From an uncultured Pelagibacteraceae bacterium (GTDB taxonomy: Bacteria > Pseudomonadota > Alphaproteobacteria > Pelagibacterales > Pelagibacteraceae): a stretch of DNA of 64,000 nt. Shown here piece after piece: positions 754-50,012 of this stretch. Each line of letters opens with the position of its first letter. Position 1 is the stretch's first letter. The DNA lies in the NCBI GenBank assembly GCA_902594235.1, contig CACJLJ010000001.1:248001-312000 (forward strand), in the 5' to 3' direction. Made by a program: the position numbers and the translations under genes. The notes below the pieces were generated by a model that ran no database searches, was not told the DNA's origin, and worked only from the letters and a program-made list of their open reading frames with translations.

Positions 754-795
754 TTATACAATGCATGCAAGAGGTTGTATTTTGAGTCCGTAATT

Positions 796-837
796 GAATC
801 AAAAGTGAATCAAAACGTGAACATCAAAACTACATTT
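796..837. promoter_or_regulatory. Candidate SOS-type operator upstream of umuD
   Basis: Between umuD (minus) and the GFA gene (plus) there are spaced repeats GAAT (796-799), GAAT (807-810) and GAAC (819-822). The last forms GAAC-N8-TACATTT (819-837). The same GAAC-N8-TACATTT string occurs before recA at 3511-3529. Alphaproteobacterial LexA boxes are typically GTTC-N7-GTTC or its complement; this is a degenerate match. The link to SOS control is an inference from motif sharing by two SOS genes. Confidence 0.35.
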
Positions 838-883
838 TGTATGCTTGTGGATAACTTCAACCAAGGATAGTTTAAAATATCAA

Positions 884-22938: not shown

Positions 22939-22968
22939 CATATCCAACTACTTGTAAGATTATACCTT

Positions 22969-23128
22969 TACGGGAGAGACTACAAAAGATAGTAGCGCCG
23001 AAGGAGCAACCACCCAGGAATCTCTCAGGCAAAAAGGACCGTAGCATATTAACTCTGGAAAGAGATTAAATTCTCGCCGAAGGAGCAAAACTCTCAGGCA
23101 AATATACAGATGGGTACTTAGAGTTAAT
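22969..23128 (+). ncRNA. Tandem glycine riboswitch (gcvT element)
   Basis: Two successive glycine aptamers. Aptamer I spans 22969-23043: its P1 pairs TACGG (22969-22973) with CCGTA (23039-23043) and its core contains GCGCCGAAGGAGCAA (22995-23009) and CTCTCAGGC (23022-23030). Aptamer II spans 23048-23128: core CGCCGAAGGAGCAA (23075-23088) and CTCTCAGGCA (23091-23100). ATTAACTCT (23048-23056) pairs perfectly with AGAGTTAAT (23120-23128), the bases directly before the gcvT ATG at 23129. There is no terminator between aptamer and gene, so control is probably translational. SAR11 glycine riboswitches are already known in the literature. Confidence 0.95.
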
Positions 23129-24235
23129 ATGGAAACAAAAAAAACATCGCTGTACCAATTACACAAAGATAGTAATGCAAAGTTTGTTGAATTTGCAGGA
23201 TATGAAATGCCAATTCAATATTCCGAGGGCATTGTAGAAGAGCATAAATTCACAAGAAATCACTCTGGTATTTTTGATGTTTCACATATGGGTCAATTAT
23301 TCATTTATGGTGGCGAGGATTTAATTAAAGATTTAGAAAAAATCTTTCCATTAGATTTGAAAAATTTAAAATTAAATCATTCAAAATACAGTTTCTTAAT
23401 GGATAAAGATGCTGGTATACATGACGATTTAATAATTACAAAAATTGATGAGGGTTTTTTAATTATTCTTAATGCAGCATGTAAAGACAATGATTTTAAG
23501 ATTTTAAAGGAATTGTTAAACGAAAAGCACAAAATGGTTTTGGATGTAAATAGATCCTTAATAGCAATTCAGGGACCAAAATCGTCACTAATACTAAATG
23601 AAATTGTTGATGGAGTAAAAAATCTAAATTTTATGTCAGGAAATTGGTTCTTATTTGAAAATCAGAAAGTATACATTACTCGATCCGGGTATACAGGTGA
23701 AGATGGTTTTGAGATATCGATCCCGAATAATTTTGCAGATAAATTAACTAGAGTATTAATCAATAAAGGTTCTAAGTTAGTAGGATTAGGAGCAAGAGAC
23801 ACTCTAAGGTTAGAAGCTGGTTTATGTTTATACGGCCATGACCTTGATAAAGATAAAACTCCAGTAGAAGCAAATTTAAAGTGGGCAATCTCAAAAGAAA
23901 GAATATCTAAAGGAGACTTTATAGGCTCTGATATAATTATTAAACAATTAACTGATGGTGTAAGCAAGATTAGAGTTGGAATAAAACCTGAAGGAAGAAT
24001 AATAGCAAGAGAAAAAACAAAAATATTCAATCAATCAGATGTTCTTATTGGAGAAATCACTAGTGGTACATTTGGACCAAGTGTTAATGGACCTGTGGCA
24101 ATGGGTTATGTGGAAAATGAATTTTCAAAAAAAAATACTAAAGTATTTTTAGAGGTAAGAGGTAAAAAACATGCAGCAAGTATTTGTAGTCTACCATTTT
24201 ATAAAAAAAGTTATGTGAAAGGAGCTAACCAATGA
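23129..24235 (+). CDS. gcvT: Glycine cleavage system T protein (aminomethyltransferase)
   Basis: Transfers the methylene group from aminomethyl-lipoyl GcvH to tetrahydrofolate, releasing ammonia. 368 residues: an N-terminal [25 protein letters not shown], then [12 protein letters not shown], the folate-domain blocks AIQGPKS and [33 protein letters not shown], and a C-terminal barrel [21 protein letters not shown]. First gene after the riboswitch; overlaps gcvH by 4 bases. Confidence 0.97.
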
Positions 24236-24612
24236 GTGAAGTAAAATATTCAAAAGAACATGAATGGATAAAATTAGAGGGCGATGTTGCAACAATTGGT
24301 ATAACAAAGCATGCAACGGAGATGTTAGGAGATATAGTGTTTGCAGAGTTGCCTGAAAAAGGCTCTAGTGTAGAAAAAGATGGAACAGCTGGAGTTGTAG
24401 AGTCGACGAAAGCAGCTAGTGATGTATACACTCCTGTTAGTGGTGAAATAGTTGATACAAATCAAGCCATAGTAGATGATCCATCAAAAATTAATCAAGA
24501 TCCTGAGAATTCAGCATGGTTTTTTAAACTTAAAATAAAAGATCCATCTGAAATGGACACATTAATGAATAAAGATGATTACGATAAATTTGCCAAGGAG
24601 ACGTCAGCATAA
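24232..24612 (+). CDS. gcvH: Glycine cleavage system H protein
   Basis: Lipoyl carrier protein shuttling the aminomethyl intermediate between GcvP, GcvT and the dihydrolipoyl dehydrogenase. 126 residues; the lipoylated lysine is Lys60 in [12 protein letters not shown], and the [18 protein letters not shown]-terminus is typical. Its end overlaps the gcvP start by one base (TAATG). AGGAG is present before gcvP inside its coding end (AAGGAGACG). Confidence 0.97.
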
Positions 24613-27482
24613 TGTTACCGAATTCTGAAAAAGATTTTTTAAAAAGACACATTGGACCCTCTAAAGAAGACCAATTAAAAATGTTAAAAGAATTAAATTA
24701 TCAGTCACTAGATGACTTAATTGACAGCACGGTTCCAGAAAAAATAAAGTTTAAAGGTGAACTAAATATCGGTGAGTCGAATTCTGAATATGAGGCGCTA
24801 AGAAAATTAAGATCAATTTCAAAGAAAAATCAAGTTTACTCAAATTTTATTGGTATGGGTTATTATGGAACTTATACACCATACGTAATTTTAAGAAATA
24901 TATTAGAAAATCCAGGCTGGTATACTTCGTATACACCTTATCAGCCTGAGGTAGCTCAAGGAAGACTTGAGATGTTATTGAACTTTCAACAAATGATTGT
25001 TGACTTTACGGGAATGGATATTGCCAATGCCTCTCTGTTAGATGAAGGCACAGCAGCAGCAGAGGCCATGGGATTAAGTCACAGATTAAATAAAAAAGAT
25101 AGTAATTTAGTTTTTGTTTCTGAGGACTGTCATCCTCAAACAATAAATGTAATTCAAACAAGAGCAGAACCAATGGGGTTAAAAGTTTTAGTTGGTAAAG
25201 AAAATGAAGTTTTAGACCAGTTAAAGGAAGATTTAGTTTGCGGGATTTTACAATACCCTGGAACTTTAGGAGATATTAAGGATCCAAGTGAAGCAATTAG
25301 TAAAATTCACAAAAAGAATGGTAAGGCTGTATTGGCTTGTGATTTGTTAGCATTGGCAAAACTTAAAACACCAAGAGAGCTTGGTGCTGACATTGCAGTT
25401 GGAAGCTCCCAAAGATTTGGTATTCCAATGGGATATGGAGGTCCACACGCAGCTTTTTTTGCAACAAAGGATGAGTACAAAAGATCAATGCCTGGAAGGA
25501 TTGTCGGTGTATCAGTTGATAGACATGGAAATAAGGCTTATAGATTATCCTTACAAACCAGGGAGCAACATATCAGAAGAGATAAAGCGACAAGTAATAT
25601 TTGTACTGCTCAGGCTTTATTAGCAATTGTTTCAGCAGCATATGCTATTTATCATGGTCCAGAAGGAATAAGGAATATTTCTGAAAGAGTTTCTCAATTA
25701 GCAAAAAGTTTTGCTGATAAAATAAAACAATCTGGATATGAACTTTACTCTAATTATTTTTTTGATACTGTTACAATTATTACAAAAGAAAAAACTGATC
25801 AAATTTATAAAAATGCTTTAAATCAAAAAGTAAATATAAGAAAAGTAAATTCCGAAATGCTTGCAGTTTCTTTTGATGAGAGAAAAAATGTTTATAGAGT
25901 AAATCAACTATTAAAAATTTTTAATGCAGCAGAATCAATCAAAAAAGAGGATCCTTCAGTAAGTTTACCCAATTTACCAAAGAATTTATTTAGAACTTCA
26001 AAATATTTAGAACACCCAGTTTTCAATTCATATCATTCAGAAACTGAAATGCTTAGATATCTAAAAAGATTAGAGGATAAGGATATAGCATTAAATAGAA
26101 CTATGATAGCACTTGGCTCATGCACAATGAAGTTAAATGCTGCTGCAGAAATGATACCAATTTCTTGGAAAGAATTTGCAGAGCCTCATCCGTTTGTTCC
26201 AATTGAACAAATGGAAGGATTTAGAGACTTATTTACTGATCTAAAAAATTGGTTGCGATCAATAACTGGTTTTTCAGGTGTTTCTTTACAACCTAACGCA
26301 GGTGCTCAAGGTGAATATGCAGGTTTAATGGTTATCAGAAAGTATCACTTAGATAGAGGTGAGGCTAATCGTAATATATGTTTAATTCCAAGTTCAGCAC
26401 ATGGCACTAATCCAGCAAGTGCACAAATGGTTGGAATGAAAGTGGTTGTCATAAATTGTGATAAAGAGGGAAATGTTGATTTTGATGACTTAAAGAAAAA
26501 AGCAGAGCAACATTCTGAAAACCTTGGGGCATTAATGGTAACTTATCCATCTACGCATGGAGTTTTTGAAGAAAAAATAAGTGATATTTGTGAGTTAGTT
26601 CATAAACATGGTGGCCAAGTCTACATGGATGGAGCAAATTTAAACGCCTTAGTTGGAGTTGCAAAACCTGGAAATTTTGGTCCGGACGTTTGTCATATTA
26701 ATTTACATAAAACATTCTGTATTCCTCATGGCGGGGGAGGACCTGGAATGGGACCTATTGCTTGTAAAAAACATTTACAAGTTTATCTGCCTAATCATCC
26801 AGTAATAAAAGATTGTGGACCAACGACTGGAATTGGAGCCGTATCAGCAGCTCCTTGGGGTAGCTCAAGTATTCTTTCAATTTCTTGGATGTATATTAAA
26901 ATGATGGGATCAGCAGGATTAAAGCTTGCTACTCAAGTTGCAATATTAAACGCGAATTATATTGCTCATAGACTAAAAGATCACTTCCCAATTTTGTATA
27001 AAGGTTCAAATGGTAATGTTGCACACGAATGTATTATAGATATTAGAAATATTAAATCAGAAACAGGAGTAACAGAAGAAGATATCGCAAAAAGATTAAT
27101 TGATTTTGGATTTCATGCACCGACTATGTCATGGCCTGTAGCTGGCACTATGATGATAGAGCCAACTGAAAGTGAAGGTTTATCGGAGCTCGATAGATTT
27201 TGTGATACTTTAATTAAGATTAAACAAGAGATAGATAAGATTAAATCTGGTGAATTTGATAAAGTTGATAATCCAATAAAAAATGCTCCTCATACAGACT
27301 CTGAGCTTGCATCTGATAATTGGGAACACAAATACACTAGACAAGAAGCAGCTTATCCAGCTAAATTTTTAAAAGCTAATAAATTTTGGCCACCAGTTGC
27401 AAGAGTAGACAACGTATATGGTGATAAAAATATTTTTTGTACATGCCCAAGTATGGATGAATTCAAAGAGGATGCAGCATAG
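24612..27482 (+). CDS. gcvP: Glycine dehydrogenase (decarboxylating), single-chain GcvP
   Basis: PLP enzyme that decarboxylates glycine. 956 residues, the full-length fused form rather than split GcvPA/GcvPB. The PLP lysine is Lys700 in NLHKTFCIPHGGGGPG. Other blocks: an N-terminal RHIGPSKEDQLKML, the inner GMGYYGTYTPYVILRNILENPGWYT and the C-terminal PVARVDNVYGDKNIFCTCP. It completes the gcvTHP set; the L protein is not in this window. The next gene starts only 6 bases after its stop. Confidence 0.98.
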   Translation: MLPNSEKDFLKRHIGPSKEDQLKMLKELNYQSLDDLIDSTVPEKIKFKGELNIGESNSEYEALRKLRSISKKNQVYSNFIGMGYYGTYTPYVILRNILENPGWYTSYTPYQPEVAQGRLEMLLNFQQMIVDFTGMDIANASLLDEGTAAAEAMGLSHRLNKKDSNLVFVSEDCHPQTINVIQTRAEPMGLKVLVGKENEVLDQLKEDLVCGILQYPGTLGDIKDPSEAISKIHKKNGKAVLACDLLALAKLKTPRELGADIAVGSSQRFGIPMGYGGPHAAFFATKDEYKRSMPGRIVGVSVDRHGNKAYRLSLQTREQHIRRDKATSNICTAQALLAIVSAAYAIYHGPEGIRNISERVSQLAKSFADKIKQSGYELYSNYFFDTVTIITKEKTDQIYKNALNQKVNIRKVNSEMLAVSFDERKNVYRVNQLLKIFNAAESIKKEDPSVSLPNLPKNLFRTSKYLEHPVFNSYHSETEMLRYLKRLEDKDIALNRTMIALGSCTMKLNAAAEMIPISWKEFAEPHPFVPIEQMEGFRDLFTDLKNWLRSITGFSGVSLQPNAGAQGEYAGLMVIRKYHLDRGEANRNICLIPSSAHGTNPASAQMVGMKVVVINCDKEGNVDFDDLKKKAEQHSENLGALMVTYPSTHGVFEEKISDICELVHKHGGQVYMDGANLNALVGVAKPGNFGPDVCHINLHKTFCIPHGGGGPGMGPIACKKHLQVYLPNHPVIKDCGPTTGIGAVSAAPWGSSSILSISWMYIKMMGSAGLKLATQVAILNANYIAHRLKDHFPILYKGSNGNVAHECIIDIRNIKSETGVTEEDIAKRLIDFGFHAPTMSWPVAGTMMIEPTESEGLSELDRFCDTLIKIKQEIDKIKSGEFDKVDNPIKNAPHTDSELASDNWEHKYTRQEAAYPAKFLKANKFWPPVARVDNVYGDKNIFCTCPSMDEFKEDAA

Positions 27483-34284: not shown

Positions 34285-35733
34285 CTAAGTTCCACAAAAA
34301 GTTTTATAATTTTTATTTGATAATGAGGGCATTTGATATTCATCAATATTTTTTTTTTCATTATAAGGATTTTTTAGTATTTCTAAAAATTGAATAGTTG
34401 GTTTCAAATTTCCTTGATTAGCTTCGTTTAAGGCTTCCTCAACTTTATGATTCCTTGGTATCACAAGTGGATTCACTCTTCTCATTAATTTTATAAATTT
34501 TTCAGGGGTATTATTTTTTATTTTTAATCTATCTTGCCATCTTTTTTTCCAATTTTGAAAATCATTATCTTCAAAGCCTTTATCTTTTTGGTTTTCTAAA
34601 TTCATTAAATGACAAAAAGTATTTGTGTAATCCTTTTTTTTTTGATGCATCCAAGTAAGCAGATCTAAAATTAAAGATTTATCTTTATCATCTACACCAA
34701 AAAGACCCAACTTATCTCTCATCATATTAAGCCACTTTTCTTCATATTTTTTTTCAAAAGTATCAATTATTTCTGTAGCTTGTTCTATTGCTTTCTTTTG
34801 ATCATGATCAATTAATGGAATTAAACATTCTGCAAATCTGGTTAAGTTCCATTTGCCAATAACAGGTTGATTGCAATAAGCATATCTTCCCATTTGATCA
34901 ATTGAACTAAATACAGTTTTTGGGTCATAAACATCCATAAAGGCACATGGACCATAATCAATAGTCTCTCCGGATATACTCATATTATCTGTATTCATCA
35001 CACCATGTATAAAACCAACTCTCATCCAATTTATTATGAGATCAATTTGATTGTCTAAGACAATCTCTAGAAGATCTATTGGTTTTTTTTTTGAATTTTT
35101 AATATTTGGGTAGTGTCTTTCAATAACATAATTTAACATCATTTCCAGCTCATCTATTTTTTGTCTAGCAGCAATATATTGAAAAGTTCCAACTCTAATA
35201 TGACTTAATGCAACCCTTGTAAGTACAGCGCCATTCAATGATGTTTCTCTAATTACCTCTTCACCTGTTCTAACAACTGCTAAACTTCTTGTAGTTGGTA
35301 TACCTAAATTATGCATTGCTTCGCTAATAATATATTCTCTTAACATTGGACCTAATGCAGCCCTTCCATCACCATTTCTTGAAAAAGCAGTTTTACCGGA
35401 GCCTTTAAACTGAATATCGTATCTATCTTTATTTTTTGATAAATGCTCTCCAATCAAAACTGCTCTTCCATCACCCAACATAGTAAAGTGACCAAATTGA
35501 TGACCGGCATAAGCTTGGGCAATACTATCACTTCCCTCAGGAAGTGAATTACCTGAAAATAATTCTGAAATTTTTTTATTATCTAAACTTGAAAAATCTA
35601 AATTAAGCTCTTTAGCAAGATCATTGTTAAGTATTACTAGCTCAGGTTTTCTTACAGGAACAGGGTTTATATTTTCTTTAAATGAATTTGGTAATTTAGA
35701 ATAAGTATTATCAAAGCACCATCCTATGGTCAT
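34285..35733 (-). CDS. selO: Protein adenylyltransferase SelO (YdiU/UPF0061)
   Basis: Pseudokinase-fold enzyme that transfers AMP to Ser/Thr/Tyr of target proteins, linked to redox stress. 482 residues with the family blocks AQAYAGHQFGHFTMLGDGRAVLIGE, RYDIQFKGSGKTAFSRNGDGRAALGPMLREY, IPTTRSLAVVRTGE, and the catalytic-loop-like FIHGVMNTDNMSISGETIDYGPCAFMD. It ends FCGT, so it has a plain cysteine near the C-terminus and no sign of selenocysteine. It starts only 5 bases downstream of the formate dehydrogenase alpha gene, likely within its transcript. Confidence 0.93.
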   Translation of the reverse strand: MTIGWCFDNTYSKLPNSFKENINPVPVRKPELVILNNDLAKELNLDFSSLDNKKISELFSGNSLPEGSDSIAQAYAGHQFGHFTMLGDGRAVLIGEHLSKNKDRYDIQFKGSGKTAFSRNGDGRAALGPMLREYIISEAMHNLGIPTTRSLAVVRTGEEVIRETSLNGAVLTRVALSHIRVGTFQYIAARQKIDELEMMLNYVIERHYPNIKNSKKKPIDLLEIVLDNQIDLIINWMRVGFIHGVMNTDNMSISGETIDYGPCAFMDVYDPKTVFSSIDQMGRYAYCNQPVIGKWNLTRFAECLIPLIDHDQKKAIEQATEIIDTFEKKYEEKWLNMMRDKLGLFGVDDKDKSLILDLLTWMHQKKKDYTNTFCHLMNLENQKDKGFEDNDFQNWKKRWQDRLKIKNNTPEKFIKLMRRVNPLVIPRNHKVEEALNEANQGNLKPTIQFLEILKNPYNEKKNIDEYQMPSLSNKNYKTFCGT

Positions 35734-35738
35734 TAGAT

Positions 35739-38507
35739 TTAACTTACTTCTGCTTGATTTTCTTTTGGCTTCACTTCAGTCTTAAATTGATTTGAAATTT
35801 TTTGCACTTGTACGGAAGAAACTTTGTATTCCGCACACATTGTTTCTTCATCTTTTCCGTGACCAGTTACCATATTTACCATATGTTCGGGAAAATGGAA
35901 TGTCGTGAATACAATACCCTCTTTAACTTTATCTGTGACCTCTACTTTAAGAGCAACTTCGCCTCTACCAGAATATAATCTCCCAATATCTCCTGTATTT
36001 AAATCTCTATCAGCTGCGTCTTTAGGATGAATTAATAAGACATCTTCATCAACTATATTAATATTATTTGTTCTTCTGGTCATTGTGGCAGCATTATAAT
36101 GTTGTAAAACTCGACTAGTAGTTAATATTAATGGATAGTCTTTCTGATTATTTTTAATCTCAGTAGATTCTTTCCAATCAAAGCTTTTTAATCGACCTTT
36201 TCCTAATTTAAATTCTTCAGTATGTAAAATTTGAGTATCTGTTCCATCTTCTTTTACAGGCCACTGTAGGCCAAATTTTCCCAATCTTTCTCTAGTAATA
36301 CCTTTGAAAAAAGGAACTATATCAGCAATTTCCGCAAGCACCTGATCAGCATCATAATCAGGTTGATCGAATCCAAGTTTTTGCATCATGTCAGTTACTA
36401 TCACCCCATCAGGTTTTGTTCCTGGCAATGGTGGAACGGCTCTATTGACTCTTTGTACTCTTCTTTCAGTATTTGTAAAAGTTCCATCTTTTTCTAAGAA
36501 TGTGGTCCCTGGTAAAACTACCGTTGCAAGTTTTGCTGTTTCACTCATAAATATTTCTTGTACCACTAACAATTCAAGTGAATTCATCGCTTCAACCACA
36601 TGAGCACTATTAGGATCTGTTTGAACAATGTCCTCTCCAATGATCCATATTCCCTTTATATCTTTTTTAATTGCTGCATCAAACATTTGAGGTATTTTTA
36701 ATCCTGCTTTTGTTGGATGAGTAACACCATATTTTTCGGAGTAGAATTTTTGATTTTTTTCATCGGATACTTCAAAATAACCAGCACCCTGATGTGGTTG
36801 ACAACCCATATCTGCAGCACCTTGAACATTGTTTTGACCTCTTAAAGGATTTACTCCAACTCCTTTTCTACCAATATTTCCTGTAATCATAGCCAAGTCA
36901 GCAATCAACATTACAGTTTTTGAACCTTGTTCATGCTCAGTCACTCCTAAGCCATGAAACTCCATTGAATTTTTAGCTGTTGCATAAGCGATAGCGGCTT
37001 CTTTTACTAATTGTTTATCTACTCCAGCAACCTTTGCCAAATGATCAACATCTTGTCTTTCAATTTCTTTTAAAAAATTATCAAATCCTTCTGTTCTATC
37101 TCTTACAAAATCAGCATTATATAATTTTGATTTAATTATAAAATGTAACATCATGTTAAGCACAGCAACATTTGTTCCAGGCCTTAATTTAATATGATAA
37201 TCAGCTAATTTTGCTAATTCAGTTGTAATTGGATCTAAAACAATAAGTTTTTTACCTTTCATAACTTGTTGTTTAATTTTTGCTCCCGTTACAGGGTGTG
37301 CATTTGTTGGATTTGCTCCAATTACCAAAAATAGATCCGCATGATAAATATCTTCAGTAGAGTTTGTAGCAGCACCAGTTCCAAATGTTTGTTGCATTCC
37401 CCATGCAGTCGGTGAGTGACAAATTCTTGCACAACAGTCAACACTATTAGTTCCTACTGCCGCTCTTATCATTTTTTGAAAAACATAATTTTCTTCATTT
37501 GTACATCTTGCAGATGATATTCCTGCAAATGCATCTGGACCATGATCTTTTATTATTCTTTGCATTTCTTTTTTAATAAAATCATAAGCTTCATCCCAGC
37601 TTGCTTCCTCAAATTTACCATTTCTTTTAATCAAAGGAGTTTTTAATCTATCTGGGTGATCATAAAAACCAAACGCATATCTTCCTTTAATACAAGTATG
37701 CCCAGCATTCACTTCTGTCTGTTTTGGAGTATCAATTGCTACAACTTTATCATTTTTGATTGATGCCTCTAAATTACAACCAACACCACAATAAGAACAG
37801 GTAGTTCTTACTTTTTTATCTACAGCTGCTGATTTTGATTGAAAAACATCTGAAATTGCATCAGTTGGACATGTGTGTGCACAGGCTCCACAAGATACAC
37901 ATGATGAGTCACCAAACATCATGTCATTATCAGTTGTAATTCTCGACTCAAAACCTCTTCCAGACATTGTAAGGACAAATGAACCTTGAATTTCATCACA
38001 AGCCCTTACACATCTTCCACAATTAATACAGTTATCTAAATTCATTCTCATATAATCATGAGAGGTATCTCGAGGGATTCCTTTATGCTGTTTTGGACTA
38101 TTATATCTGTGATCAGTAATACCTAAGTCGTTAGCAACAGTTTGAAGTTCACAATTATTGTTTACTTCACAAGTATTACACTCCATTGGATGATCTGTTA
38201 AAACTAATTCAACAATATTTTTTCTCAAACTTTGTAGATTTTCATTTGTAGTAAAAATGTGTTGATTTTCAGCTACTGGAGTATGGCATGAAGCCACTAC
38301 TTTTGTTGGTCCATCTTTTTCTAATGCAACCTCAACAGAACAAACTCTGCATGCACCGTATGGAGCAAGATTAGGATCATCACAAAGTGTTGGAACTTTT
38401 TTTTCTCCAACATAACTTTTTACAAATTTTAAAATAGATGTATGGTTCGCACCAATTTCGTATGGTTTACCGTCTATATATGCAATTTTTCTTTTTTCTG
38501 AACTCAT
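35739..38507 (-). CDS. NAD-dependent formate dehydrogenase, catalytic alpha subunit
   Basis: Molybdopterin enzyme oxidising formate to CO2. 922 residues: an N-terminal [2Fe-2S] domain (cysteines in CDDPNLAPYGACRVC), His-Cys3 cluster motif HPMECNTCEVNNNC, two ferredoxin motifs (CINCGRCVRAC; CVSCGACAHTC), a [4Fe-4S] site CSYCGVGC, then the Mo-bisPGD domain with the metal-ligand Cys363 in RICHSPTAWG in place of selenocysteine. There is no twin-Arg signal, so it is cytoplasmic. It overlaps the NuoE/F-like subunit gene by one base. The domain order is that of the FdsA / Fdh1A class. Confidence 0.96.
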   Translation of the reverse strand: MSSEKRKIAYIDGKPYEIGANHTSILKFVKSYVGEKKVPTLCDDPNLAPYGACRVCSVEVALEKDGPTKVVASCHTPVAENQHIFTTNENLQSLRKNIVELVLTDHPMECNTCEVNNNCELQTVANDLGITDHRYNSPKQHKGIPRDTSHDYMRMNLDNCINCGRCVRACDEIQGSFVLTMSGRGFESRITTDNDMMFGDSSCVSCGACAHTCPTDAISDVFQSKSAAVDKKVRTTCSYCGVGCNLEASIKNDKVVAIDTPKQTEVNAGHTCIKGRYAFGFYDHPDRLKTPLIKRNGKFEEASWDEAYDFIKKEMQRIIKDHGPDAFAGISSARCTNEENYVFQKMIRAAVGTNSVDCCARICHSPTAWGMQQTFGTGAATNSTEDIYHADLFLVIGANPTNAHPVTGAKIKQQVMKGKKLIVLDPITTELAKLADYHIKLRPGTNVAVLNMMLHFIIKSKLYNADFVRDRTEGFDNFLKEIERQDVDHLAKVAGVDKQLVKEAAIAYATAKNSMEFHGLGVTEHEQGSKTVMLIADLAMITGNIGRKGVGVNPLRGQNNVQGAADMGCQPHQGAGYFEVSDEKNQKFYSEKYGVTHPTKAGLKIPQMFDAAIKKDIKGIWIIGEDIVQTDPNSAHVVEAMNSLELLVVQEIFMSETAKLATVVLPGTTFLEKDGTFTNTERRVQRVNRAVPPLPGTKPDGVIVTDMMQKLGFDQPDYDADQVLAEIADIVPFFKGITRERLGKFGLQWPVKEDGTDTQILHTEEFKLGKGRLKSFDWKESTEIKNNQKDYPLILTTSRVLQHYNAATMTRRTNNINIVDEDVLLIHPKDAADRDLNTGDIGRLYSGRGEVALKVEVTDKVKEGIVFTTFHFPEHMVNMVTGHGKDEETMCAEYKVSSVQVQKISNQFKTEVKPKENQAEVS

Positions 38508-40162
38508 TAATTATCTTTTACCATATCACTTTTCATTTCATCACCAAAATACTTTAAAATATTCATAATGGGAGTTGGTATGGCACCACAAAGGGCACAT
38601 AAACAGCCTTTTTGCATAGTTACCAATAATTCATTTAATAATTTCAATGGAATTTTGGCAGTCTTTTGTTTAGCCTGATCAAACATTTCTTTTCCTCTAT
38701 AAGATCCAAGTCTTCCAGGAAAACATTTGCCACATGATTCTTCTGCTGAGAATTCAAATAAGTGATGAATATATTTGGTCATTGGAAAATCTTTTGGAAT
38801 ACTTACAACACTTGCATGTCCCAACATAAATCCCTTTGCAGTAAATTCTTGAAAATCTAAATTTAAGTTATTAATTTCTGTTAGAGGAACTACTCCACCT
38901 AAAGGACCGCCAATTTGAAATGCTTTTATTTCTTCTTTGTATCCACCACCAATTTCATTAAATATTTTTTTCATTGGAGTGCCCATGTCTATTTCATAAA
39001 CACCAGGATTATTAAAAAAACTGTCCAAACAAACTAATTTAGTACCTGCTGATTTCTTATTTCCAATTGATGAAAATTTATTTGCTCCATTGATTAATAT
39101 TCCAGATGCAGCAGCTAAAGTCTCAACATTGTTAACAACTGTAGGTTTTTTATAAAGTCCTTCAGTGACAGGGAATGGTGGTCTTACATCTACCTCAGCT
39201 CTTCTTCCTTCAATTGATGCAATTAGTGCAGTTTCTTCTCCACAAATATATGCACCTTGTCCAATACAAATCCCCAAATCAAATGAAAAATTCGTTCCTA
39301 AAATATTTTCTCCTAAGAGTCCCAACTTTTTAAGTTCATTTATACTTCCATTTATTGCTTCAATAGATTTAGGATATTCTCCTCTAATATATAAAACACC
39401 TTCATTACTTCCTATTACGAAACCACATATTACCATTCCAAAAATAACTTTTAAAGGTTGATCCTCCAACAAATATCTATCTGAGAAGGCACCTGAGTCA
39501 CCTTCATCAGCATTACAGATAACATATTTTTTATCTCCTTTAGCTTTGCTACAAAAATCCCATTTCATTCCTGTAGGAAAACCAGCACCACCTCTTCCAG
39601 TTAAATTTGAGTCTAGTAATGATTTTATAATTTCTTTTTTATCTATTTTAAGAAATTTGCTCAATTGATCTTTGAATTGATCAGTAGATGAAAGTTTATC
39701 ATCCATTAAGAAACTTGTTGTTGCGTAACTTTTTGAAAAAAATTTTTCCTGTTTTATGTCTTCACCTTTTAAAATTTGATCTATTTTTTCAATATCTTTT
39801 CCAGCATAATTTTCTCCATCATAGTGAAATGCATGGTTCTCATAACAATGTCCTAAACAGAACATTTCTCCAACCTTATCATCACCTAATTTTTCTTTTA
39901 GTTTATCTTTTAATTTTTCTTGAGTTCCTGCACACATACAAGCACTTCCATTACAAACAAAAGCTTTTTTTTCTCTATGTGAAGGTCTTAAAAATTCATA
40001 GAAACTTTCAGCACCATGAATAGTTGATACCCCTAAATTATATTCTTTTGCAATTTCTTTAATATCTTTTGGTGAGTCATTAAGTACATTTTCAGACATT
40101 TTTTTAAATAAGTTATTTTTCAAACCAATTCTTCCAGATAAATTACTTATATTTTTGGACAC
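38507..40162 (-). CDS. Formate dehydrogenase diaphorase subunit, NuoE-NuoF fusion
   Basis: NADH-forming part of the cytoplasmic formate dehydrogenase. 551 residues: residues about 1-150 are NuoE-like with [2Fe-2S] cysteines (CNGSACMC and CLGHC); the rest is NuoF-like with the FMN/NAD region GRGGAGFPTGMKWDF and GAYICGEETALIASIEG. The [4Fe-4S] motif reads ESCGKCFPGR (Cys477, Cys480, Gly483), where the third cysteine of the usual CxxCxxC is glycine; downstream CLCALC (520, 522, 525) has extra cysteines. The fused layout matches Fdh1B of methylotrophs rather than separate FdsG and FdsB. Confidence 0.94.
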   Translation of the reverse strand: MSKNISNLSGRIGLKNNLFKKMSENVLNDSPKDIKEIAKEYNLGVSTIHGAESFYEFLRPSHREKKAFVCNGSACMCAGTQEKLKDKLKEKLGDDKVGEMFCLGHCYENHAFHYDGENYAGKDIEKIDQILKGEDIKQEKFFSKSYATTSFLMDDKLSSTDQFKDQLSKFLKIDKKEIIKSLLDSNLTGRGGAGFPTGMKWDFCSKAKGDKKYVICNADEGDSGAFSDRYLLEDQPLKVIFGMVICGFVIGSNEGVLYIRGEYPKSIEAINGSINELKKLGLLGENILGTNFSFDLGICIGQGAYICGEETALIASIEGRRAEVDVRPPFPVTEGLYKKPTVVNNVETLAAASGILINGANKFSSIGNKKSAGTKLVCLDSFFNNPGVYEIDMGTPMKKIFNEIGGGYKEEIKAFQIGGPLGGVVPLTEINNLNLDFQEFTAKGFMLGHASVVSIPKDFPMTKYIHHLFEFSAEESCGKCFPGRLGSYRGKEMFDQAKQKTAKIPLKLLNELLVTMQKGCLCALCGAIPTPIMNILKYFGDEMKSDMVKDN

Positions 40163-43841: not shown

Positions 43842-44747
43842 ATGATTGAACTGAAAAATGAAAAAATAGCCGTGCCAGTTGTTTTGTTTGCTGGTATTCT
43901 TTGGTCATTTGGTCCTCTAGTAGTTAGATATATGCAAGATCCACATGTTGTTCCTTGGCAATATATTTTTGGTAGAGGTTTGACAATTTTTATTATCTTA
44001 AATCTTTATTTATACTTTGAAGAGGGAGTTAATTTTTATAAAAATTATAAAAAAATTGGTAAATCTGGACTTATTGGTGGAATTGGCCTTGGAGTGGCAA
44101 TGATTTCATTCATCTATTCAATTACTAATACTTCTGCAGCAATTACACTTTTATGCTTAGCTGCAATGCCTTTTTTTACTGCCTTGTTAGCATTTTTGTT
44201 TTTAAAAGAAAGAATTTCATTAAATGTTTGGATATCAATTATCATTGCTTCAATTGGAATAATAATTATGGCAGTTGGTAATACTGAAAAAAATTCTTTA
44301 ATAGGGTTTATTTTTGGTATCACATCATCAATTGGTTTTTCCGTTTTTTCAGTAACTCTTCGATGGAGAAAAGAAACTCCAAAATTTACAACTGTGGCAA
44401 TAGCAGGTTTATTTTGTTTTATTATAGCTACAATTATGATTTTAGCGAAAGGCCAAACATTTTTTGCATCGAGCTATAATAGTGCAATGTTTTCGCTACA
44501 TGGCACATTGGTATGTTTAGGTCTTATTTTATATTCAATTGGATCAAAAGCAATTCCTGCAGCTGAACTTACTTTATTATCATTAACAGAAGTTATAGGT
44601 GGTATTTTTTGGGTTTGGTTACCACTTTTTGGTATTAATGAAGTTCCATCAACTAATACAATAGTTGGAGGATTTTTTCTTTTTATCTCATTAATTTATT
44701 ATAGTCTTATAATGCGGTGGAATAAAAGATACATTGCTCTCAATTAA
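43842..44747 (+). CDS. DMT superfamily (EamA) permease next to creatinase
   Basis: 301 residues, about ten transmembrane helices in two EamA repeats (TNTSAAITLLCLAAMPFFTALLAFLFLKE; IPAAELTLLSLTEVIGGIFWVWLPLFG). It starts a three-gene run: creatinase begins 11 bases after its stop and the amidinotransferase follows immediately. It is therefore the best local candidate to move creatine, guanidinoacetate, or a product such as urea; this is inference from position only. Preceded by a 51-base AT-rich gap after moeA. Confidence 0.85.
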   Translation: MIELKNEKIAVPVVLFAGILWSFGPLVVRYMQDPHVVPWQYIFGRGLTIFIILNLYLYFEEGVNFYKNYKKIGKSGLIGGIGLGVAMISFIYSITNTSAAITLLCLAAMPFFTALLAFLFLKERISLNVWISIIIASIGIIIMAVGNTEKNSLIGFIFGITSSIGFSVFSVTLRWRKETPKFTTVAIAGLFCFIIATIMILAKGQTFFASSYNSAMFSLHGTLVCLGLILYSIGSKAIPAAELTLLSLTEVIGGIFWVWLPLFGINEVPSTNTIVGGFFLFISLIYYSLIMRWNKRYIALN

Positions 44748-44758
44748 ATCTATAATTT

Positions 44759-45976
44759 ATGGAACGACCTGATTTTTTTACATTAAAAAATGGTGAAAAA
44801 GCAAAACTCCCATTCTCAAAAAAGGAATATGAGCAAAGGTTGAGTAAGCTTAGATTTTTAATGGATAAGTTAAATCTTGATATGATAATTTTAACTTCAA
44901 TGCATAATATTGCTTATTATACTGGTTTTATTTATTGCTCATTTGGTAGACCCTATGGGTGTGTAATTACTGACAAAAAAATATCTACTATTTCTGCAAA
45001 TATAGACTCTAGCCAACCTTGGAGGAGATCGCATTGTGAGAATGTAATTTATACTGATTGGAAAAAAGATAACTTTTTAAAAGCTATTGTATCGATTATT
45101 GGAAGAGATGATCCTCCCAAAAACATAGGAATAGAAAATGACCATGTAACATTAGATGTTAATGAAAAAATTCAATCTATTTTTTCATTTTCTGTTTTAA
45201 AAGATGTTTCTAAAGACCTTATGAAGCTTAGAATGATAAAATCAAATGAAGAAATAGAAATAATTAAAAATGGTGCAAGAATTGCTGACATAGGGGGAGA
45301 AGAAATTGTAAAAAATATAAAAGAGGGTGCAACTGAATTAGAAATTGCAATAACTGGAAGGGATAAAATGGAAAGAGAAATTGCAAAAACTTATCCAGAT
45401 GCTGAATATATGGATACCTGGGTATGGTTTCAATCTGGAATTAATACAGATGGTGCACATAATCCAAAAACAAATCGTAAATTATTAAATGGTGATATTT
45501 TATCTTTAAATACTTTTCCAATGATCTCAGGATATTATACTGCTCTTGAAAGAACATTATTTTTAAATTCTGTAGATGATGAGTCTCTAAAGGTCTGGGA
45601 AGCAAATATTAAAGTTCATAAAAGAGGTTTGGAATTAATTAAACCAGGGGTTAAATGTTCAGATATTTGTAACGAGTTAAATGAATTATTTGCTGAACTA
45701 GGATACTTACAATATCGAACTTTTGGATATGGACATTCTTTTGGGGTGCTTTCACATTTTTATGGAAGAGAGTCAGGTTTAGAGCTTAGAGAAGATATTG
45801 ATACTGTTTTGGAGGAGAATATGGTTATTTCAATGGAACCCATGATCTTAATCCCAGACGGAAAACCGGGTTCAGGAGGTTATAGAGAACACGATATCTT
45901 AATTATAAAAAAAGATGGTACCGAAAATATTACTAAGTTTCCATTTGGACCAGAACACAATATTATTAAAGAGTAA
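44759..45976 (+). CDS. Creatinase (creatine amidinohydrolase)
   Basis: Predicted to hydrolyse creatine to sarcosine and urea. 405 residues, the length of Pseudomonas creatinase (about 403). It has the pita-bread fold of M24 proteins but not their metal ligands. Stretches matching creatinase as I recall it: YYTGFIYCSFGRPYG, ISANIDSSQPWRR, DTWVWFQSGINTDGAHNP with the catalytic His (His234; His232 in P. putida), GYYTALERTLFL (Glu264), TFGYGHSFGVLSH and SMEPMILIPDGKPGSGGYREHDIL. An Xaa-Pro dipeptidase is less likely for that reason. Related guanidino hydrolase activity, such as on guanidinoacetate, remains possible. One base separates it from the amidinotransferase. Confidence 0.88.
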   Translation: MERPDFFTLKNGEKAKLPFSKKEYEQRLSKLRFLMDKLNLDMIILTSMHNIAYYTGFIYCSFGRPYGCVITDKKISTISANIDSSQPWRRSHCENVIYTDWKKDNFLKAIVSIIGRDDPPKNIGIENDHVTLDVNEKIQSIFSFSVLKDVSKDLMKLRMIKSNEEIEIIKNGARIADIGGEEIVKNIKEGATELEIAITGRDKMEREIAKTYPDAEYMDTWVWFQSGINTDGAHNPKTNRKLLNGDILSLNTFPMISGYYTALERTLFLNSVDDESLKVWEANIKVHKRGLELIKPGVKCSDICNELNELFAELGYLQYRTFGYGHSFGVLSHFYGRESGLELREDIDTVLEENMVISMEPMILIPDGKPGSGGYREHDILIIKKDGTENITKFPFGPEHNIIKE

Positions 45977-45977
45977 A

Positions 45978-47099
45978 ATGAATAATAAAAAAGTCATTGT
46001 AAACAGTTGGAACGAATGGGACCCTCTTAAACATGTAATAGTAGGTAGGGCTGATGGAACCTGTATACCTGCCCCTGAGCCTGCTCTTGATGCAAAAGTT
46101 CCAGAAGACTCTGATATGAGAGGGCAATTCGGTCCAAGAACTAAAGATACTGTTGATAAAGCTAATCAACTTTTAGACGATTTTGCCAACATACTAAAAA
46201 AAAGAGGAATAAAAGTTGATAGACCAACACCAATTCAGTTTAATCAAAAAACATCTACACCAGATTGGGAGGCAGAAACTATGTTTGGCTGTATGCCGCC
46301 TAGAGATGTCTTGCTTACAGTGGGAAATGAAATTTTGGAGGCAACTATGAGTTATAGGTGTCGTTGGTTTGAATATTTGTGTTATAGACCACTTTTAAAA
46401 GATTATTACAATAATGATCCTAATATGAGACATGAGTCTGCGCCAAAACCTAGACTTACAGATGCAGATTATAGAAAAGATTACTTATCAGACAAAATCG
46501 GTATCCAAAAAAGACTTAAATGGACTGAAGATAAATTTTTTGTAACTACAGAAGAAGAGCCATTATTTGATGCTGCTGATGTGTTAAGATTTGGAAAAGA
46601 TTTAGTAGTTCAGCATGGTTTTACAACAAATTTAAAAGGTATTGATTGGTTAAAAAGACATTATAAAGATCACAGGGTTCATGCTGTAAATTTTCCTGGC
46701 GACCCTTACCCAATTCATATTGACGCAACTTTTACACCAATAAAAGAAGGGCTGATCATAAATAATCCTCAAAGAAGGCTACCAATTAAACAAAGAAAAT
46801 TATTTGAAAATAATGGATGGGAAATAATTGATGCAGCTCAACCAGCGCACAATGAACCACCGCCACTTTGTTATTCATCTGTTTGGCTTTCAATGAATGT
46901 TTTAGTTTTAGATCCAAAAACAGTTTGTGTAGAAAAAAGTGAAATTTATCAAGCAGAACAATTAGATAAATTGGGAATGGAAGTAATCCCTGTTAGATTA
47001 AGAGATGCGTATGCTTTTGGCGGAGGACTTCATTGTTGTACAGCAGATGTTTATAGGGAAGGAGAATTAAAAGATTATTTTCCTAAACAAAAAAATTAG
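45978..47099 (+). CDS. Glycine amidinotransferase (AGAT) family
   Basis: Amidinotransferase predicted to exchange the amidino group between arginine and glycine, giving guanidinoacetate and ornithine, or the reverse. 373 residues; it resembles vertebrate AGAT: FDAADVLRFGKDLVVQ (Asp198), PIHIDATF (His247), a WLSMNVLVLD block and GGGLHCCTADV (Cys353). The Asp-His spacing of 49 residues equals that of human AGAT (254 and 303), and the catalytic Cys follows at a similar distance. The frame is open to 45915, but the ATG at 45978 just after the creatinase stop gives the natural N-terminus MNNKKVIVNSWNEWDPL. Acceptor specificity is not certain. Confidence 0.88.
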   Translation: MNNKKVIVNSWNEWDPLKHVIVGRADGTCIPAPEPALDAKVPEDSDMRGQFGPRTKDTVDKANQLLDDFANILKKRGIKVDRPTPIQFNQKTSTPDWEAETMFGCMPPRDVLLTVGNEILEATMSYRCRWFEYLCYRPLLKDYYNNDPNMRHESAPKPRLTDADYRKDYLSDKIGIQKRLKWTEDKFFVTTEEEPLFDAADVLRFGKDLVVQHGFTTNLKGIDWLKRHYKDHRVHAVNFPGDPYPIHIDATFTPIKEGLIINNPQRRLPIKQRKLFENNGWEIIDAAQPAHNEPPPLCYSSVWLSMNVLVLDPKTVCVEKSEIYQAEQLDKLGMEVIPVRLRDAYAFGGGLHCCTADVYREGELKDYFPKQKN

Positions 47100-47323
47100 C
47101 TAGGATTTTTTTTTAAAAATTCTATGTATTTCAAAACTTCATAATATTTTTCATCAGGAATATCTTTGTAACTTGAATTAAATTTATTTTTAATACAAAT
47201 TGCAACATGTGCGTATGGATTTCGTCCTTTAGGATGATTTGGGTGCTCAGGCAGCTGTCCATCTAGATAATCACCTGCTTCCAGAATAATTTGCCAAAGT
47301 TTACTTGCATTTTCTTTATTCAT
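47096..47323 (-). CDS. Small conserved-looking hypothetical protein
   Basis: 75 residues, hydrophilic, no signal or membrane segment. It contains a proline/histidine-rich turn GQLPEHPNHPKGRNPYAHV between an N-terminal helix (NASKLWQIILEAGDYL) and a C-terminal helix (DEKYYEVLKYIEFLKKN). I do not recognise the family. The reading frame is protein-like and its stop overlaps the amidinotransferase stop by 4 bases, in the same manner as other real convergent pairs here, which favours a genuine gene. Confidence 0.65.
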   Translation of the reverse strand: MNKENASKLWQIILEAGDYLDGQLPEHPNHPKGRNPYAHVAICIKNKFNSSYKDIPDEKYYEVLKYIEFLKKNPS

Positions 47324-48671: not shown

Positions 48672-50012
48672 TTATCTTTGATCTTGTTGATCCTCTTTTT
48701 TATACTTTACTCCCTTTCTCTCCAAGATTTCTTTCACTTTGTCTGAATATGGTTCTTCAATATGCTCAGTAGTTGGATTAAGTTCAATACCAGCAGGAGT
48801 AATAGTTTGAGGCATTGCGACAAATTGAGAGTCTGGATTGTCAACAGTTTGTCTTACTTTCATTCTATAAATTCCAAAGAAACCAATAATTGAATGGAAA
48901 AAAAATAAAAATATAAAAAAACCGTTTGAACCAACTAAATCCATAAATATAGAACATAAAAACGGCCCACTCATTGCCCCTAATCCAAATGCAAATTGAA
49001 GACCTGCTCCTGCAGCAACAAATTTATCTTTAGATATATAGTCATTTGTGTGAGCTAGAATTAGTGAAAACATAGGCAAGCTACAGAACGAAAATAAAAT
49101 AAAAAAAATGTAAAACCAGGTTTTACTAGTTGCAAGACTTCCTGGTAAGTACATTTGTTTAGATACAAATATAGCTATAATTGCAAATATAGCTGCACCA
49201 AATGTGCTAATTACAATTACTTTTCTTCTGTCATAAATATCAGATATTTTTCCAATTGGAAATTGTGCTAAAGCACCTGAAATTGCTAAAAGAAATGTGA
49301 CAATTGAAATTTCTAATATAGTGAAATTCATTGATGATGCATAAACTGCCAATAATGTAAATAAAGCAGACTGTATAGTGCCATAAAAAAGTGAGCTTAC
49401 CATTCCAAAAGGAGAAGCATTATAAAGCTCTTGTAGTTTCATAGCTTTAATACTTTTAAAAGTTGGTGGTTTTTTTTTAGTTAATAGAATTGGTATTAAT
49501 GCAGCTGATGTTATTACAGAAATTAATATAAATGGCTGAAAATCTTTTGGAGTGCTAAAATTAAGTAAAAACATCCCAATACCTAGGGAACCGTACAATA
49601 CTACCATGTATATAGATAATACACTTCCTCTGTTTTTGTTACTTGATCTATCATTTAACCAGCTCTCCGCAACTGTGTAAATACAAACCATACTAATTCC
49701 TGTTAAAACTCTTAATAAAAACCAAACTATTGGATTGACTAAAATTGAGTGAATTAAAATAACTAAAGATGCAAGTGATGCAAAAGCAGCAAAAACTCTT
49801 ATATGTCCTACTCTTGAAATTATAGATGGGATAGTTGCAGCACCAATAAAATAACCAACAAAGTATCCCGACATCATAAAACCTGTTGATGTAAGACTAA
49901 ATTCTTCTTGTACAGCTCGAACACCCAAGAGTGAGCCTTGAAAGCCATAAGCCATCATTATACACCCCATTCCCAAAAATAATGCCCAAGAATTCTTAAA
50001 AACTTTGCTCAT
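48672..50012 (-). CDS. Major facilitator superfamily transporter
   Basis: 446 residues with twelve hydrophobic segments over about residues 5-390 and a hydrophilic C-terminal tail (residues about 400-446). The MFS loop signature between helices 2 and 3 appears as PSIISRVGHIRVFA, and the inter-domain repeat as GKISDIYDRRKVIV. It resembles the YcaD/MFS-type permeases with unknown substrate. It stands between the DMT permease (57-base gap upstream) and the coiled-coil gene. Confidence 0.87.
   Translation of the reverse strand: MSKVFKNSWALFLGMGCIMMAYGFQGSLLGVRAVQEEFSLTSTGFMMSGYFVGYFIGAATIPSIISRVGHIRVFAAFASLASLVILIHSILVNPIVWFLLRVLTGISMVCIYTVAESWLNDRSSNKNRGSVLSIYMVVLYGSLGIGMFLLNFSTPKDFQPFILISVITSAALIPILLTKKKPPTFKSIKAMKLQELYNASPFGMVSSLFYGTIQSALFTLLAVYASSMNFTILEISIVTFLLAISGALAQFPIGKISDIYDRRKVIVISTFGAAIFAIIAIFVSKQMYLPGSLATSKTWFYIFFILFSFCSLPMFSLILAHTNDYISKDKFVAAGAGLQFAFGLGAMSGPFLCSIFMDLVGSNGFFIFLFFFHSIIGFFGIYRMKVRQTVDNPDSQFVAMPQTITPAGIELNPTTEHIEEPYSDKVKEILERKGVKYKKEDQQDQR

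Follow-up and report, generated by a model that had tools for sequence, protein, structure and literature searches.

A stable permease-amidinotransferase pair with an optional creatinase in SAR11 bacteria: a candidate module for scavenging guanidino acids

Why should an amidinotransferase of the AGAT family share an operon with a creatine-degrading enzyme? Human AGAT and CyrA serve creatine or toxin synthesis, whereas the SAR11 protein considered here is encoded directly behind a creatinase. The locus lies in a stretch of 64,000 nucleotides (the window; GenBank contig CACJLJ010000001.1, positions 248,001 to 312,000) from an uncultured Pelagibacteraceae bacterium, whose SAR11-type genome amounts to 1.19 Mb over 12 contigs. 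A first-pass annotation of the window had described a tandem trio in which 11 bases and then 1 base separate the genes for a DMT permease (DMT1), a creatinase and an AGAT-type amidinotransferase; this layout was confirmed, on the + strand. For the AGAT, the ATG at 45978 was preferred to the mechanical open reading frame (ORF) start at 45915, inside the creatinase gene, which gives the 1-base gap and a length of 373 aa. The same annotation had regarded the three genes as a guanidino-compound module, an idea supported by the conserved linkage and by the substitution of one enzyme for the other described below. The most likely reading, held with middling confidence and ahead of both forward synthesis and a different acceptor, is that the operon would serve the scavenging of dissolved guanidino acids.

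The protein of the middle gene aligned almost from end to end with three solved creatinases (E 4e-156 to 1.7e-147; residues 4-404 for 1chm), as had been claimed. The score was 523 bits for 1chm versus 96 bits (E 2.6e-26) for the best prolidase. The active site of 1chm, in which the residue number is the chain index plus one, is presumably made up of His232, Arg64, Glu262, Arg335 and Glu358; these align with His234, Arg64, Glu264, Arg337 and Glu360 of the window protein. We take prolidase-type M24 metallopeptidases to use two Asp as metal ligands, and this pair is replaced by Asn and Ala in the window protein, the same as in the aligned creatinases. The far weaker prolidase match and the replaced ligand pair led to the rejection of an M24 peptidase identity. 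A dimethylsulfoniopropionate lyase (DddP) identity was also rejected (23.9 bits, the cut-off being 600). The first pass had named a placement with peptidases as the outcome that would speak against its reading; by similarity and residues, the predicted protein is creatinase-like and not peptidase-like.

The product of the third gene aligned with human AGAT (1jdw, E 1.1e-88) over 362 residues (7-368). Asp198, His247 and Cys353, which had been numbered correctly at first pass, align with the human catalytic triad Asp254, His303 and Cys407. The residues that we take to form the human arginine site (Asp170, Asp305, Arg322, Ser354 and Ser355) are kept as Asp110, Asp249, Arg266, Ser300 and Ser301. 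The 300-flap reads Asp-Pro-Tyr-Pro-Ile, with Tyr244 and Ile246 at the variable places, and the whole flap was identical in 52 of 52 SAR11 AGATs and in 75 of 75 close AGATs of SAR116 and roseobacter type. The predicted protein is AGAT-like, with glycine as a candidate acceptor. An AGAT with 61% identity and an apparently differing flap (Asp-Leu-Ile-Pro-Thr) was seen in genome G413, where it stands first in a series of EutA-like, PALP, ornithine-cyclodeaminase-family, M20, M24 and proline-racemase-family genes (L180:9783-18357).

Conservation was evaluated in samples of 197 genomes of the family and 51 genomes of the window genus. The family sample contained 61 genomes with AGAT and 39 with creatinase; in the genus the counts were 50 and 23 of 51, and all 23 genomes with creatinase also had AGAT. 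The two genes were adjacent and on the same strand in 25 of the 26 family genomes having both, and in the 26th each stood at a contig end (41 of 64 AGAT places and all 39 creatinase places entered this count). The neighbourhood of the two enzymes, called unusual at first pass, is therefore common within SAR11, and the gene order, whose absence from relatives had been named as a counterargument, recurs. AGAT occurred without creatinase in 27 of the 50 AGAT-bearing genomes of the genus, and creatinase without AGAT in 13 of the 39 family genomes that carry it, several of the 13 being incomplete.

The permease stayed close to AGAT. A gene of the DMT1 cluster was located within two genes of AGAT in 41 of the 52 SAR11 AGAT genes examined, and when creatinase was absent DMT1 abutted AGAT with similarly short spacing. 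Gene order was compared in 61 loci, chosen for carrying AGAT or creatinase and representing part of such genomes; DMT1 was followed by AGAT alone in 26, by both enzymes in 15, and by creatinase alone in 2 plus one at a contig end. An AGAT tree combined the 52 SAR11 sequences with 30 of the 75 close ones from outside SAR11 and 4 more. On it, DMT1 adjacency changed once across all 52 SAR11 AGATs, and creatinase adjacency changed 7 times, with no fewer than 6 changes when the count is limited to the 41 AGATs linked to DMT1; these counts are rough because many branches are weak (35 of 81 open). Genus genomes with a listed state were at least 94% complete. Absences outside the genus carry less weight, since many of those genomes are only 55 to 90% complete. 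Permease and AGAT are thus the stable core of the genus, and creatinase behaves as a cassette. A threonine-aldolase-like gene, with aldolase 1v72 and L-threonine aldolases as its best solved relatives, followed AGAT in 19 of 52 cases whether creatinase was present or not, and is a possible glycine source. AGATs 74-76% identical to that of the window were also seen in a different neighbourhood (L067, L074 and L098; genomes G083, G149 and G088), as a second copy in G083 and G088; L067 and L098 share genes that by eye resemble a GMC-type oxidoreductase and a TauD-like dioxygenase, plus another EamA permease.

In other SAR11 genera, AGAT or creatinase heads a cluster of EutA-like, EutD/DoeA-like M24 and PotABCD-type ABC transporter genes. 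EutD-like genes were present in 11 and PotA in 10 of the 12 such EutA loci inspected, the remainder ending or breaking off earlier. When the 29 EutA matches outside the window genus were inspected within 1.5 kb (47 matches inside the genus were left out), creatinase alone was found in 8, AGAT alone in 7, both in 2 and neither in 12. Because either AGAT or creatinase can occupy each of two kinds of transporter-linked slot, the two probably share a substrate class and a direction of use. Creatinase, as a hydrolase, works catabolically, so gene order argues that AGAT would be catabolic too. Salvage is favoured on the same ground: the swapping of enzymes in slots linked to transporters suggests that guanidino acids are imported and used. 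Since the EutA- and EutD-like genes score below the NCBIfam cut-offs, no claim of ectoine use is made.

The window genome has a EutA/EutD/PotABCD-type cluster of its own (L135:974-5257 and L132:4728-13999), with a ureohydrolase and an aldehyde dehydrogenase gene. Its substrate range may include guanidino acids. Divergent to AGAT or creatinase, L095:10705-16063 encodes a luciferase-like monooxygenase, a PF06684 protein, an alpha/beta hydrolase, an aldehyde dehydrogenase and a periplasmic binding protein, with equivalents in other SAR11 genera (L092, L094, L097, L101, L107, L108 and L111); these genes look like a ring-opening catabolic operon.

Outside SAR11 the association was recurrent. Among 385 genomes of the class, AGAT was found in 12 at a threshold of E 1e-30, among which 8 counted as close, with an identity no lower than 61%. 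Creatinase was present in 4 of the 5 non-SAR11 class genomes with a close AGAT, versus 45 of 385 overall. The co-occurrence of close AGAT and creatinase gave a Fisher p of 1.4e-6, or 6e-4 without SAR11, the genomes not being independent. A scan of named genomes yielded at least 592 AGAT relatives, the best 80 of which belonged to SAR116, marine roseobacters and unclassified Alphaproteobacteria; five of these loci yielded no AGAT row (ORF picking, GC-rich DNA), which left 75 proteins for comparison. In 5 of the 80 loci a creatinase with at least 50% identity was encoded no further than 5 kb from AGAT, divergent in two SAR116 and convergent in Tateyamaria, Shimia and L221. The L221 creatinase gene separates AGAT from PotA-PotD, and AGAT is flanked on its far side by a ureohydrolase. 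Of the 80 loci, 4 have a ureohydrolase gene immediately next to AGAT and 3 have PotD-type genes within 5 kb; in total, creatinase, ureohydrolase or PotD was near AGAT in 8 loci. A genome with no AGAT match had M24, EutA-like, PotABCD-type and creatinase genes in one run (L185). In L195, L205 and L218 an MTTB-type methyltransferase immediately follows AGAT (PF06253 in L195). Phage records held AGAT relatives in 15 cases, all below 30% identity and none confirmed in viral contigs. Phage-borne copies of either enzyme were rejected; creatinase relatives occurred in 22 records, none confirmed in viral contigs, the best at 54% on an unannotated 8.3-kb faecal contig and the other 14 among the matches listed at 30% or less.

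The proposed route would start with the entry of a guanidino acid, possibly via the DMT permease here and via the PotABCD-type ABC importer in relatives. Creatinase would convert creatine to sarcosine and urea, and the sarcosine would be oxidised by FAD/GcvT-type dehydrogenases together with the glycine cleavage system. AGAT, the family chemistry being reversible, could take the amidino group off guanidinoacetate, or a closely similar compound, and pass it to ornithine, giving glycine and arginine. The nitrogen would then be retained instead of being lost as urea, which the window genome seems unable to split. Permease and AGAT would form the core, and creatinase would broaden the substrate range. 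Substrates, AGAT direction and permease role are argued here from gene identity, active-site letters, linkage, shared-slot substitution and the missing urease and creatininase matches. Salvage was the first of two models offered at first pass; gene context favours it, short of proof.

The first pass had noted no urease in the window, and no match to urease alpha was obtained anywhere in the window genome; it was present in 4 of 61 genus genomes. Creatininase (PF02633) gave no match in the 197 family genomes, with 6 of 14 control genomes positive, and creatinine use via this enzyme was rejected. The window genome has eight GCV_T-domain genes, including a riboswitch-preceded gcvT. One of the five scanned encodes an 813-aa FAD-GCV_T fusion and none reached the sarcosine oxidase cut-off. 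The gcv and formate dehydrogenase genes mentioned at first pass were indeed located in the window, as gcvT, gcvP, formate-dehydrogenase-like genes and fdhD (Table 1), and from their context the riboswitch-linked gcv genes are a possible downstream sink for glycine or sarcosine. According to the available text of Noell et al. (PMC8437039), two SAR11 strains require glycine and are without urease, and agmatine-derived urea is speculated to be inhibitory in SAR11; a route in which ornithine receives the amidino group would spare the cells this urea.

A more specific claim is made tentatively, with prospects somewhat below even. AGAT in SAR11 and marine relatives would act in reverse, as a catabolic enzyme of amidino salvage that produces no urea. 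Dissolved guanidinoacetate (or creatine) would donate its amidino group to ornithine, which would supply glycine-dependent cells with arginine and with glycine (or sarcosine). AGAT and creatinase would be functionally interchangeable, and the ocean would contain an overlooked supply of glycine and arginine in the form of guanidino acids.

Several results weigh against salvage. DMT permeases are often exporters, which would fit synthesis. No riboswitch, the glycine riboswitch included, was found near the operon in 13 AGAT or creatinase loci. Outside SAR11, AGAT and creatinase were neighbours in only 1 of the 4 class genomes having both (G630, divergent), and 72 of the 80 loci lacked creatinase, ureohydrolase or PotD near AGAT, for which reason the association is recurrent but not general there. 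The link to import is indirect, because 12 of the 29 EutA loci carry neither enzyme (two of them at contig starts and two being distant copies in G042) and the cluster may serve polyamines or ectoine-like solutes. In the accessible part of PMC4887976, the relative AmtA catalyses in both directions, which speaks for salvage, but it forms arginine from ornithine only with canavanine as donor, not with guanidinoacetate. The flap pairs given there are Asn300/Met302 for human AGAT, Phe/Ser for CyrA and His/Met for AmtA; Tyr244/Ile246 matches none of them, and glycine as the acceptor is not assured on that account.

Under forward synthesis, AGAT would turn arginine and glycine into guanidinoacetate or some other guanidino acid. 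The product would leave the cell through the DMT permease or accumulate as a solute, and creatinase would degrade creatine as a separate function within the same operon. The coupling of DMT1 to AGAT, more stable than that of either to creatinase, speaks for it, and the threonine aldolase could provide the glycine. On the other hand, nitrogen- and glycine-poor cells would presumably lose both. AGAT and creatinase also swap in slots of two kinds, one of them next to a cluster of importer type, and this argues against synthesis, as do the eight relatives with AGAT beside ureohydrolase, creatinase or PotD. Guanido kinase (PF00217) gave no match in the 197 family genomes, although the control genomes gave none either. 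Forward synthesis is judged unlikely.

Similarly improbable, in our estimate, is an AGAT partner other than glycine, such as sarcosine, beta-alanine, GABA (gamma-aminobutyric acid), taurine or lysine, in which case a different guanidino compound would be handled. This would suit the clade-invariant flap, unlike the three in the accessible part of PMC4887976. It would also suit the ureohydrolase of the window genome's own Pot cluster, which among solved structures is nearest to 3-guanidinopropionase and guanidinobutyrase. Against it, the window protein agrees with human AGAT in each of the eight catalytic and arginine-binding residues compared, and the recurrent pairing with creatinase points to creatine-like acids.

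The second model of the first pass, an arginase substitute, has little left in its favour. In it, AGAT and a creatinase accepting guanidinoacetate would form a glycine-catalysed cycle from arginine to ornithine and urea, or a ureohydrolase would take the second step. The window genome has two ureohydrolases above the NCBIfam agmatinase cut-off, neither of which reaches the arginase cut-off, and the ureohydrolase beside AGAT in four relatives would fit the variant. Such a substitute needs creatinase, yet more than half of the AGAT genomes of the genus are without it, and the model was rejected as the principal explanation for that reason; the two agmatinase-type ureohydrolases weaken it further. 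AGAT is in turn missing from a third of the creatinase-bearing family genomes, several of them incomplete. Urea would be a dead end in cells with no urease, and titles and abstracts yielded no statement that creatinase takes guanidinoacetate. Finally, a chance neighbourhood with no functional link is very improbable: SAR11 genomes are dense, genes 1 base apart need not share a pathway and most non-SAR11 AGAT loci have no related neighbour, but the adjacency recurs in both tandem orders, divergently and convergently, over SAR11, SAR116 and roseobacters, with the co-occurrence statistics given above.

Salvage thus remains the preferred explanation, and parts of it have precedents. Creatinase and the use of creatine in SAR11 had been published by 2013: in the accessible text of a Red Sea study (PMC3686209), the enzyme is gene cluster SAR2086, labelled 'Core SG1a', and is read as leading from creatine to glycine. 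'Amidinotransferase' is absent from its main text, in contrast to the pairing described here, and creatinase is not core here, as only 23 of 51 genus genomes carry it. In the available text of the 2011 paper cited there for the pathway (PMC3160333) the word creatine is absent. Creatine use has also been proposed for AEGEAN169 (PMC11366302, available passages), and Roseobacter denitrificans is described as a user of creatine nitrogen in the available text of PMC8864220. The creatine utilisation loci of Pseudomonas, Arthrobacter and Corynebacterium covered there likewise lead from creatine through creatinase to sarcosine and urea, and from sarcosine to glycine. In them a CreT-type transporter gene typically neighbours that of creatinase or creatininase, whereas SAR11 has a DMT permease and AGAT, and no creatininase. 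The SAR11 polyamine metabolism in PMC8437039 involves the same type of PotABCD cluster, an agmatinase-type ureohydrolase and no urease; its main text, as far as available, does not contain 'creatin' or 'guanidin', whereas AGAT or creatinase heads the homologous cluster in other SAR11 genera. Among the matches listed, no title or abstract names a link between AGAT and creatinase in bacteria, most subscription papers being outside the coverage. While each enzyme type is known, their pairing and what it serves have yet to be established. New here are the permease-AGAT core with a changing creatinase, the swap in the EutA slot and the AGAT neighbours in SAR116 and roseobacters.

Table 1. Features located in the window, with the evidence for each
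Feature	Position	Strand	Evidence
DMT1, EamA/DMT-superfamily permease, 301 aa	43842..44747	+	Pfam EamA E 3.4e-18
Creatinase (creatine amidinohydrolase), 405 aa	44759..45976	+	phmmer 1chm E 4e-156, full length
AGAT-type amidinotransferase, 373 aa	45978..47099	+	phmmer 1jdw E 1.1e-88
Glycine riboswitch ahead of gcvT	22961..23051	+	Rfam RF00504, 63.5 bits
gcvT	23129-24235	+	ncbifam gcvT above cut-off; GCV_T match at genome C1:271150 = window 23150
gcvP	24612-27482	+	ncbifam gcvP above cut-off
Molybdopterin oxidoreductase and Nuo51-type subunit	35739..40162	-	Pfam PF00384, PF01512; fdhD adjoining
SelO	34285-35733		
SAR11_0636 sRNA	773-862		RF01827, 119.9 bits

In the gcv stretch (23129..27482, + strand) a short gene separates gcvT from gcvP. 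Upstream of the operon are mobA and moeA, with fdhD and the formate-dehydrogenase-like subunits on the opposite strand; the molybdopterin oxidoreductase and its partner are consistent with a formate dehydrogenase. Directly after AGAT, an ORF of 75 aa on the - strand (47099-47323) matched no Pfam family at E 1e-6 and belongs to a cluster with 32 members across the 61 loci examined. An ORF at 48672-50012, on the opposite strand, resembles an MFS transporter by eye. Rfam detected no riboswitches or sRNAs in the window beyond the two listed, and a promoter and terminator scan gave a signal not above that of shuffled sequence.

SAR11 are abundant cells with an unusual need for glycine. If the salvage reading is true, the module would give them a route to glycine, arginine and nitrogen that is absent from the passages on SAR11 metabolism consulted. 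It would possibly be, to our knowledge, the first catabolic role for the AGAT family, and the presence or absence of creatinase would become a testable niche marker.

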